From: an uncultured bacterium
Lineage (GTDB): Bacteria; Patescibacteriota; Gracilibacteria; Absconditabacterales; Absconditicoccaceae
DNA length: 64,000 bases
Direction of reading: 5' to 3'
NCBI GenBank assembly: GCA_937872535.1
Contig: CALMTC010000011.1
Location: forward strand, 124,001 to 188,000
Position 1 is the stretch's first letter; every line of letters starts with the position of its first letter. The translations under genes and the position numbers were made by a program. The notes beneath the pieces are model-generated. The model ran no database searches. It saw only the letters and a program-made list of their open reading frames with translations, and had not been told where the DNA came from. Positions 33,663 through 58,501 of this stretch are shown here, in pieces.

Positions 33663-33701
33663 AAATTTCAACAAAAAAAATGGACAATATAGGACTCGAA
33701 C
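33663..33701. repeat. Duplicated 3' end of tRNA-Val (remnant copy)
   Basis: 39 bases identical to 33801-33839, which covers the tRNA-Val 3' part (T arm side and acceptor strand) plus 18 bases beyond it. The two copies are 138 bases apart. The unit between contains a 7-bp hairpin (CTCCGCA/TGCGGAG on the minus strand) and a stem AATCC/GGATT with loop TTTTCAAA, giving it a tRNA-like look without a canonical fold. It resembles an attL/attR pair left by insertion at a tRNA 3' end. Confidence 0.75.
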
Positions 33702-33818
33702 TGCCAGGATGTTGAAATCCTTTGAAAAAGGATTGGGAAACAGCCTGAGCACTCCGCAGAGAGAAAACGATTGCGGAGCTATCAAATAAGAAACAAAAAA
33801 AAATTTCAACAAAAAAAA

Positions 33819-33891
33819 TGGACAATATAGGACTCGAACCTATAACCCCTCCCACGTCAAGGGAGTGCTCTCGCCATTGAGCTAATTGTCC
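33819..33891 (-). tRNA. tRNA-Val(GAC)
   Basis: Acceptor GGACAAT / ATTGTCC, discriminator A. Anticodon stem CTCCC/GGGAG with loop TTGACGT (anticodon GAC). CCA is not encoded. Its 3' end is duplicated downstream (33663-33701). Confidence 0.95.
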
Positions 33892-34414
33892 AAACAAAAA
33901 CTTTATAAGTATGTGAGTAAAAAAATCAAGCAAAAAATGGCTTTTCACCTTTATTAAAAAAAACTAACGAAATATCCATTAGTTTGATGATTATTTTTGA
34001 TAAAAATTTTATGAAAAAGGCTATTTATAGAGTAGAAAAAAATTAATTTGATATAAATGATTTTTCGAGTGAAGTTTCTATTGAGAAGTGAGAAAATTTT
34101 TAAAAAAGTAATGAAGAAAAAAACTAAAAAAAATAATACTCAGATGTTTTTTAATATTTTCCAGAAATAAAACTTTAAAAAAAATATTTTTGAGAGAAAT
34201 TTAAAATAAATAAGATTTTAAAGAATACAATAAGTTATAATTTTATAAAAATTTTTATTCTATTTTCTTTTTCAGCTATTAAATTGTCTCGTTTTTTCAG
34301 GAATTTTTCTCTTCTCAAAAAATAATAAAATAGGTAAAATACAAAAAAATCGTTCAACTTGAAATGCTTGACTTTTTCACTACGCTAGTGTCAATTTAGT
34401 CATAAATAGACAAA
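33892..34414. other. AT-rich intergenic region before murG
   Basis: 523 bases with no supported gene. A weak hairpin AAACTAA/TTAGTTT (33961-33985) may be a terminator. Close to murG there is a nested inverted repeat: TTGAC...GTCAA enclosing CACTA-CGC-TAGTG (34369-34395), a possible operator. The rest is A/T tracts. Confidence 0.4.
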
Positions 34415-57871: not shown

Positions 57872-57943
57872 GCCAGGGTAGCTCAGTGGTAGAGCAGGGG
57901 CCTGAAAAGCCCTGTGTCGGCAGTTCAATCCTGCCCCCTGGCA
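57872..57943 (+). tRNA. tRNA-Phe(GAA)
   Basis: Acceptor GCCAGGG / CCCTGGC, discriminator A. Anticodon stem GGGGC/GCCCT with loop CTGAAAA. CCA is not encoded. Confidence 0.95.
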
Positions 57944-57963
57944 ACTTGTTGACTTTAAGTTAT

Positions 57964-58036
57964 GGGCATATAGCTCAGTTGGTTAGAGCGGTCCGATAAA
58001 TATCGGACAGGTCGATGGTTTAGTCTGTCTGATGAG
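57964..58036 (+). pseudogene. Degenerate tRNA-Ile copy
   Basis: The first 27 bases are identical to the intact tRNA-Ile at 58304, and AGGTCGATGGTT (58009-58020) matches its variable/T-arm region. The anticodon arm is replaced by a perfect 7-bp inverted repeat GTCCGAT-AAAT-ATCGGAC with a 4-base loop, and the 3' acceptor strand is lost. It cannot be a working tRNA-Ile. Confidence 0.85.
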
Positions 58037-58070
58037 TTCTCCTTCTAGTTTGTCATTGTATAGTTGAAGT

Positions 58071-58313
58071 ATGAATTGATTTGTTTATGTTCTTGAGTGT
58101 TTTAATTGAAGATGGTATGTCTGAAGCACAAACAATCTCGAAAGAAGATTTGAAGAGCATCAATGAGGTAAAGTTAGTTCAACGAAAAATGTGAGACCGT
58201 TGGTACTTGTTGGAAAGAAAGAGTTTGGGACATTGCTTGAAGCTAGAAGGTATGAATTGTTCTTGAAGTCAAAAAAGAGTAAAGAGAAGGTTAAATATTT
58301 TATGGGCATATAG
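58071..58313 (+). CDS. GIY-YIG nuclease-domain protein ending inside tRNA-Ile
   Basis: 80 residues, visible only with UGA=Gly. MNGFVYVLECFNGRWYVGSTNNLERRFEEHQGG is a full GIY-YIG N-terminus: VYVL and YVG strands, catalytic Arg in LERR, His in EEH. STKNVRPLVLV and a Glu in LLEARRYELFLKSKK complete the single-domain family. The stop codon TAG is bases 8-10 of tRNA-Ile, so gene and tRNA overlap by 10 bases. It sits between a degenerate and an intact tRNA-Ile. An in-frame ATG at 58032 is an alternative start. Its relatives include housekeeping UPF0213-type proteins and homing endonucleases. Confidence 0.9.
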
Positions 58314-58380
58314 CTCAGTTGGTTAGAGCGCGTCTCTGATAAGGACGAGGTCGATGGTTCGAGTCCATCTATGCCCACCA
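58304..58380 (+). tRNA. tRNA-Ile(GAU)
   Basis: Acceptor GGGCATA / TATGCCC, discriminator A, CCA encoded. Anticodon stem CGTCT/GGACG with loop CTGATAA. Confidence 0.96.
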
Positions 58381-58427: not shown

Positions 58428-58501
58428 CGGGGATTAGCTCAGATGGCTAGAGCGCTTGGTTTGGGACCAAGAGGCCGCGAGTTCGAGTCCCGCATCCCCG
58501 A
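58428..58501 (+). tRNA. tRNA-Pro(UGG)
   Basis: Acceptor CGGGGAT / ATCCCCG, discriminator A. Anticodon stem CTTGG/CCAAG with loop TTTGGGA. CCA is not encoded. Confidence 0.96.

Follow-up and report, generated by a model that had tools for sequence, protein, structure and literature searches.

Introduction

Among the sites at which integrases dock, tRNA genes are the best known. Integrative elements that target them (tyrosine integrase islands, ICEs, and prophages) carry a partial and a complete tRNA at their ends and restore the target gene (PMC9897764). Nuclease genes adjoining tRNA genes are known from T4 SegB and other free-standing GIY-YIG homing endonucleases; segB lies between tRNA-Arg and tRNA-Ile and acts on the tRNA region, with evidence of mobility (PMC2988022). 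GIY-YIG genes also occur in non-intron insertions of structural RNA genes, namely the rRNA genes of CPR bacteria, although the authors of that survey doubted GIY-YIG homing (PMC11270868). Group I introns in tRNA anticodon loops combine insertion in the anticodon region with a nuclease gene, and REP/RAYT systems consist of short, GC-rich palindromes that track a small nuclease gene and have nuclease-free copies elsewhere.

How does the locus described here compare with these systems? It lies in a 64-kb stretch of bacterial DNA (the window), and the cassette that it represents behaves both like a homing element and like an integrative element that restores its tRNA, but it lacks the features by which integrase islands, RAYT/REP systems, and introns are defined. 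T4 segB sits between tRNA genes none of which is split, and it shows neither the half-tRNA restoration nor the anticodon-arm palindrome of the cassette, whose protein, moreover, is a catalytic domain only and which is chromosomal in many phyla. Integrative elements span 9–23 kb, whereas the cassette measures about 0.3 kb, has no integrase, duplicates either half of the tRNA, and inserts, together with a foreign palindrome, at the foot of the anticodon stem. Its nuclease is of the GIY-YIG rather than the HUH/Y1 type found in REP/RAYT, and its palindromes are concentrated in tRNA genes. Unlike the CPR insertions, for which a restored copy is not reported (PMC11270868), it occupies tRNA and not rRNA genes, and in contrast to group I introns it keeps a full tRNA copy, involves no splicing, and lacks an intron structure. 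We consider it likely that the cassette is a mobile element of small size, which breaks tRNA genes where the anticodon stem begins and provides a functional tRNA in return. We group it with the nuclease-driven mobile elements, and there is a fair chance that it forms a class by itself; we found no prior description of a tRNA-splitting, tRNA-restoring, nuclease-only cassette in the open-access literature that we searched.

A Small Gene between a Broken and an Intact tRNA-Ile

Between positions 57872 and 58501, all on the forward strand, the window carries tRNA-Phe(GAA) (57872–57943), a broken copy of tRNA-Ile, a short ORF, the intact tRNA-Ile(GAT) (58304–58380, identified by tRNA calling and Rfam), and tRNA-Pro(TGG) (58428–58501), with tuf next. 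The outer two, called by ARAGORN, are the upstream and downstream neighbors in a Phe/Ile/Pro cluster that is conserved in the family. A prior reading of the window from its sequence alone (the sequence-only reading) had described the broken copy as sharing the first 27 bases of the tRNA, and positions 57964–57990 are indeed identical to tRNA-Ile bases 1–27. With four leader bases, TTAT, the exact direct repeat extends to 31 nt (57960–57990 and 58300–58330, both on the forward strand), its first copy holding the 5′ half and its second restoring it. In the broken copy, the 17-nt anticodon arm is replaced, at its exact place, by an unstranded 18-nt palindrome, GTCCGATAAATATCGGAC (57991–58008), the proposed end of the element. 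The palindrome pairs either as an 8-bp perfect stem with a 2-nt loop (GTCCGATA-AA-TATCGGAC) or as 7 bp with 4 nt, the latter being the 7-bp inverted repeat that had been noted before. The next 12 nt on the forward strand (AGGTCGATGGTT, 58009–58020) match tRNA bases 45–56; beyond them the T-arm has decayed and the likeness fades. Against Rfam, the broken copy retains a tRNA score of 17.8 bits, which is below threshold.

The palindrome is not a product of chance, because the motif YCCGAY-N2..5-RTCGGR has this single match in the 64-kb window and none in 10 dinucleotide shuffles. The only ORF between the two tRNA-Ile copies is the GIY-YIG gene. A cmscan search of the locus against Rfam returned tRNAs and one sub-threshold hit, with no intron fold, and a group I intron or other known RNA was rejected because Rfam gives tRNA only. 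A CTGATGA motif resembling a hammerhead core had no Rfam match.

A Catalytic Domain with UPF0213 and SLX1 Relatives

The gene (58071–58313, forward strand, code 25) is open only if TGA encodes a residue; with TGA as Gly at its four in-frame occurrences (58077, 58107, 58122, and 58164) it yields 80 amino acids. The sequence-only reading had placed an 80-residue GIY-YIG protein between the degenerate and the complete tRNA-Ile, and the product matches Pfam PF01541 at E 7.8e-13 (49 bits against a curated cut-off of 22.6), with the catalytic residues of the superfamily present. Its stop codon, TAG, does lie inside the intact tRNA (58311–58313, tRNA positions 8–10), but the view of this overlap as a design feature is not supported, for at several sister loci the ORF ends before the tRNA begins. 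The suggested link to a recoded genome also fell away: most occurrences are in standard-code bacteria, and recoding is irrelevant to the cassette because such genomes carry it too.

The GIY-YIG domain covers residues 3–73 of the 80, leaving a catalytic domain only, and no DNA-binding region of homing endonucleases was recognized in the protein. Y6, Y16, R26, H30, and E62 are invariant, and the conserved Tyr, Tyr, Arg, His, and Glu are common to UPF0213 (YazA/YhbQ) and SLX1. The nearest solved relatives are UPF0213 structures (1zg2 and 1ywl), followed by the SLX1 entries 7cq2, 6seh, and 4xlg, with 7cq2 reaching E 1.8e-7 against a broad-alignment profile. SLX1 has extra domains and a partner, SLX4, whereas the window protein is the catalytic domain alone. 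A match to TIGR01453 (28.5 bits, under the 56.05 cut-off) points to a weak likeness to group I intron endonucleases. Unlike the cassette nucleases, the UPF0213-like chromosomal copies in these genomes (the KYTK.RRPV clade) hardly ever have a tRNA link.

Related Copies in the Same Genome

The whole genome (1.25 Mb) contains six PF01541 matches: one is uvrC, one has no adjoining tRNA, and four are linked to tRNA genes. At each of the four (Ile, Met, Glu, and His) the nuclease gene separates a complete tRNA from its own broken copy. At the Met and Glu loci the half kept beside the nuclease is the 3′ half, and at Glu there are broken copies on both sides, the outer left being a 5′ half and the outer right a 3′ half. 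Nuclease-free broken copies also flank Lys, Tyr, Leu(CAA), Val(GAC), and Gly. The palindrome reads GTCCGAT-N4-ATCGGAC at Ile, Met, and Tyr, TCCCGAT-TTG-ATCGGGA at Glu, CCCCGCTTAAGCGGGG at Lys, and, with one mismatch, CCaCGCA-GTCC-TGCGgGG at His; palindromes of the same type occur at 17 sites outside tRNAs, compared with 5 for a reversed control. The tRNA-unlinked gene (L001 1390–1850, G000:C3), a member of an unlinked clade, is flanked by palindromes CCCGATATAAATCGGG and CCTGCGGCAAGCAGG and has a REP-like CCCTGAGCCTGTCGAAGG inside its 3′ end.

The window itself holds a second, nuclease-free (solo) case on the reverse strand, at tRNA-Val(GAC) (33818–33892). A hairpin with a CTCCGCA/TGCGGAG stem and a 13-nt loop (33752–33778, reverse strand) adjoins the broken tRNA-Val copy, a duplicate of the 3′ half (bases 54–75 with the trailer) at 33680–33701 (reverse strand). 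In full, this hairpin (within 33680–33892) is CTCCGCA-ATCGTTTTCTCTC-TGCGGAG, and tRNA-Leu(CAA) on contig C9 (L011) has the stem CTCCGAT with an identical 13-nt loop, which suggests that the Val and Leu(CAA) hairpins form a sub-family with a conserved loop.

Linkage to tRNA Genes across Bacterial Groups

How widespread is the association with tRNA genes? We scanned the contigs of ∼85,000 genomes for the protein pattern NG[RK][YW]Y[VI]GST, blind to tRNAs, and obtained 35 loci. A same-strand tRNA lay within 155 bp at 34 of them, against a chance expectation that we estimate at about 0.6% per locus, and about 30 of the ORFs adjoin broken copies of the neighboring tRNA. By their record titles, the loci belong to Patescibacteria, Elusimicrobia, Omnitrophota, Margulisbacteria/Saganbacteria, Verrucomicrobia, Kiritimatiellales, Chloroflexi, and Bacteroidetes. 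Most of the data come from metagenome bins, in which repeats may be misassembled, but the isolates Maribellus and Draconibacterium show the cassette too. When our sets were pooled, 82 genes were linked to a tRNA on the same strand and 1 to a tRNA on the opposite strand, which is not the picture of homologs unconnected with tRNA genes that the sequence-only reading had named as evidence against itself. A broken tRNA copy stands beside 64 of the 82 linked genes (18 are without one).

Among 240 sampled Patescibacteria genomes, 146 (about 60%) had a match at E ≤ 1e-10, a count that takes in some clades unlinked to tRNAs; 21 of the 29 distinct ORFs in the loci fetched from this search were tRNA-linked. 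Standalone GIY-YIG genes in 59 relatives fall into several clades on the protein tree, where the tRNA-linked nucleases group together (5 label changes vs. 21.9 in shuffles). All 13 members of the window protein's clade are linked, and members of the KYTK.RRPV (UPF0213-like) and GFT.KY clades almost never are. Some nuclease subclades hold to one isotype (Leu or Gln), and one lineage occupies many isotypes, with Met and Ile sisters within a single genome. A narrower-profile search of IMG/VR found GIY-YIG genes on phage contigs, none of them tRNA-linked, so a viral carrier is not supported.

Palindromes are not confined to the linked genes. Genes of the GFT.KY clade at L040, L149, L151, and L155 are unlinked to tRNAs and have palindromes of another type nearby (ATTCCTGC and ATCCCCGC), and palindrome density around unlinked genes is 0.60/kb near vs. 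0.26/kb far. It may be that small GIY-YIG genes are generally accompanied by palindromes.

Break Points and the Palindrome

Where in the tRNA do the breaks fall? They concentrate at the foot of the anticodon stem. Copies of the 5′ half end at tRNA position 25–29 in 31 of 50 cases, with a second peak at 15–20, in the D-loop; copies of the 3′ half begin mainly 29–35 nt from the end (base 43–46) or in the T-arm. We found 46 copies with a perfect stem of at least 6 bp at the anticodon-arm boundary; they came from 30 loci and represented 18 tRNA species. Some cassettes instead occupy the D-loop (Leu) or the T-loop (Gly). In an alignment of 25 palindrome copies CCG/CGG is invariant, and the four other stem positions co-vary on both sides (40 compensatory cells, none one-sided); these copies were chosen for perfect stems, so that strict pairing is partly an effect of ascertainment, an explanation that does not extend to the conserved core or to the variety of compensating pairs. 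The core, YCCGA...TCGGR, is kept across phyla.

The palindrome also follows the nuclease. Up to 330 bp from linked genes its density reaches 2.11/kb, vs. 0.32/kb at 800–1,500 bp, and between genomes its similarity tracks protein identity (r 0.225, 0 of 5,000 permutations), more closely than it tracks tRNA isotype (r 0.125, 27 of 5,000), both values being uncorrected for phylogeny. A Leu-specific nuclease subclade has the palindrome CCTGCCTGCCGGCAGGCAGG in the D-loop (L045 1430–1460 and L066 1410–1450). In a Gottesmanbacteria bin (L161 2235–2307), the anticodon stem of an intact tRNA-Val(CAC) is GTCCG/CGGAC, identical to that of the palindrome; it looks as though the palindrome had given rise to it by conversion or had come to mimic it. 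Tandem arrays (L157 2355–2700, L150 1734–1972, L040 2970–3142, and L145) repeat units of 82–110 bp made of a broken tRNA half, a palindrome, and a leader or terminator, and were probably amplified through recombination.

Occupied and Empty Sites

The sequence-only reading had proposed a minimal mobile cassette that uses the tRNA as its target and restores it, had pointed to empty sites in relatives as the check, and had held that a layout fixed in all relatives would speak against mobility. Both occupied and empty orthologous alleles were found, across the family for tRNA-Ile and within genus g13 for tRNA-Tyr. In nearly all of the 28 other genomes examined, tRNA-Ile is single and without a nuclease; one relative (G027) has an empty site with a single tRNA-Ile that is 100% identical to the complete tRNA-Ile of the window, and another (G029) has right-type broken Ile copies in tandem. 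At the orthologous tRNA-Tyr in the SeC-Ala-Tyr-Arg-Glu cluster of g13, five species are empty, one has a solo left copy, and two carry a nuclease, one with a right copy and the other with a left and a right copy. Together with the linkage to tRNA genes, this presence and absence bears out the proposed cassette, and its mobility is well supported by sequence comparison. ARAGORN labels one gene of the Tyr cluster “tRNA-SeC(tca)” (L013 898–971 and the g13 loci); it is presumably the UCA tRNA with which this code-25 lineage decodes TGA as Gly.

Which copy is the original? At the occupied Tyr loci, the leader (z 13.4 and 12.6) or the trailer (z 15.7) known from the empty species is found on the outer broken copy and is absent from the intact one (z 1.4, −0.5, and −0.8). 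Where there is a left copy only, the intact copy keeps the ancestral trailer (z 33.8); the Tyr trailer comparison in G022 gave z of about 3 for both copies and did not tell them apart. These flanks come from one locus in three genomes, none of which is the window genome. Because the ancestral leader or trailer belongs to the outer broken copy and not to the intact one, they indicate that the host tRNA-Tyr was split at the base of the anticodon stem and that the missing half was brought by the element. For tRNA-Ile of the window no relative is close enough for a direct comparison, but the analogy with tRNA-Tyr makes it probable that the host's original tRNA is the broken copy and that the intact one is a restored hybrid; the 20-bp spacing between tRNA-Phe and the broken tRNA-Ile agrees with the Tyr polarity.

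Alternative Explanations

A classical free-standing homing endonuclease, making a sequence-specific cut in the empty tRNA allele of a co-resident genome, is the alternative that we take most seriously, doubtful as it is; the same doubt attaches to its corollary that the cassette is copied by gene conversion between orthologous loci, with the palindrome a scar that blocks re-cutting. The GIY-YIG family, the sub-threshold TIGR01453 similarity, the precedent of T4 SegB, a GIY-YIG homing enzyme whose gene lies between tRNA genes (PMC2988022), the occupied and empty orthologous sites, and the subclades that keep to Leu or Gln would all suit homing. They have to be set against a protein without a DNA-binding domain, an intact target that is still present, a single nuclease lineage spread over many isotypes (the Met and Ile sisters of one genome), and a palindrome whose cross-phylum core and nuclease tracking go beyond a random scar. 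The cassette could also be the remnant of an island, its partial tRNA an att site left by a tyrosine recombinase, and partial and complete tRNA copies around inserted DNA are an island hallmark (PMC9897764). Such tRNA ends were found, but no integrase gene; in the sequences read, cassettes of about 300 bp encode a nuclease but no recombinase, duplication affects 5′ as well as 3′ halves, a conserved palindrome replaces the anticodon arm, and the anatomy is identical in many phyla, all of which makes an island origin extremely improbable.

The 17 palindrome sites outside tRNAs in this genome (5 in the reversed control) might suggest that a RAYT (Y1 transposase) disperses REP palindromes and that the GIY-YIG gene has no part in this. 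A search of this genome for Y1_Tnp gave no match, control genomes being positive, and RAYT dispersal was rejected on that ground; the similarity of the palindromes to one another tracks the nuclease, their density drops sharply away from it, and we regard this origin as highly improbable. The idea of dispersed REPs is further weakened by the presence of just one such palindrome in the 64 kb, though some lie elsewhere in the genome. A palindrome copy that works as a tRNA-like RNA, whether decoy, processing signal, or regulator of the nuclease mRNA, and does so without mobility, would account for the same-strand orientation, the shared tRNA promoter or leader, and the exchange of the arm for a stem of near-equal length. 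It is nonetheless very unlikely, given that half of each cloverleaf is kept while the other half decays, that the palindromes pair strictly by Watson–Crick rules (in part an ascertainment effect), and that sites are polymorphic within a genus. Ordinary tandem duplication and decay of a tRNA, with a nuclease gene there by chance, finds some encouragement in the arrays of broken copies at L040, L150, and L157; the exact break points, the palindrome core common to several phyla, and the 34-of-35 linkage in the tRNA-blind scan bring its probability close to nil, and the linkage statistics refute it as the sole cause.

A Proposed Mechanism

We return to the mobile element that splits and restores tRNA genes. 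Its anatomy, the tRNA link, the conserved palindrome, the presence/absence polymorphism, and the ancestral flank at one locus are established at the level of sequence; we infer that the nuclease drives movement and makes the break. One end of the element would be a 16- to 18-nt palindrome with the core YCCGA...TCGGR, its middle the co-oriented single-domain nuclease gene, and its other end one half of a tRNA, accompanied by a leader (left type) or a trailer (right type) of its own. The left type, as at tRNA-Ile of the window, would insert at 27|28 and the right type at 43|44, leaving the host's outer half to end in the palindrome and the element's half to form a complete gene with the remaining host tRNA. 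Nuclease-free copies (solo broken tRNAs and tandem arrays) may be remnants or passengers.

The most likely mechanism, in our view, is that the nuclease cuts at the base of extruded hairpins, recognizing both the tRNA anticodon arm as target and its own palindrome as element end, and that repair of the break through short tRNA homology installs the element. Hairpin-base cutting is suggested by the solved relatives, UPF0213 and the branch-cutting SLX1, and by junctions that fall at both feet of a hairpin. An independent hint in line with it is that CPR rRNA-gene insertions, including GIY-YIG-coding non-introns, mostly sit at the top or base of stem-loops (PMC11270868). Counting against the mechanism, the restored intact tRNA remains a potential target, and a nuclease that is only a catalytic domain may not be capable of sequence-specific targeting by itself. 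In its most general form, one hairpin is exchanged for another, an SLX1/UPF0213-like nuclease cutting the anticodon-arm base of any tRNA and the base of its own palindrome and joining the two; we put this forward tentatively, as somewhat less than an even bet. With similar reserve we suggest that such an exchange would define a new class of mobile element, which splits and restores a tRNA and leaves the host dependent on the element's half. The cassette itself is present in many tRNA isotypes and in no fewer than eight bacterial groups.

If correct, the proposal would give a function to a GIY-YIG lineage that is matched in about 60% of the 240 Patescibacteria genomes (some unlinked clades included) and would make structure-directed gene insertion accessible to experiment in a system of very small size, for which Draconibacterium and Maribellus are cultured carriers. 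It would also explain a large class of broken tRNA copies able to mislead annotation. Palindrome-bearing broken copies do contaminate tRNA annotation: ARAGORN called a broken tRNA-Met with its palindrome (G000:C6:375–446, L002) “tRNA-??? (caaa)”.
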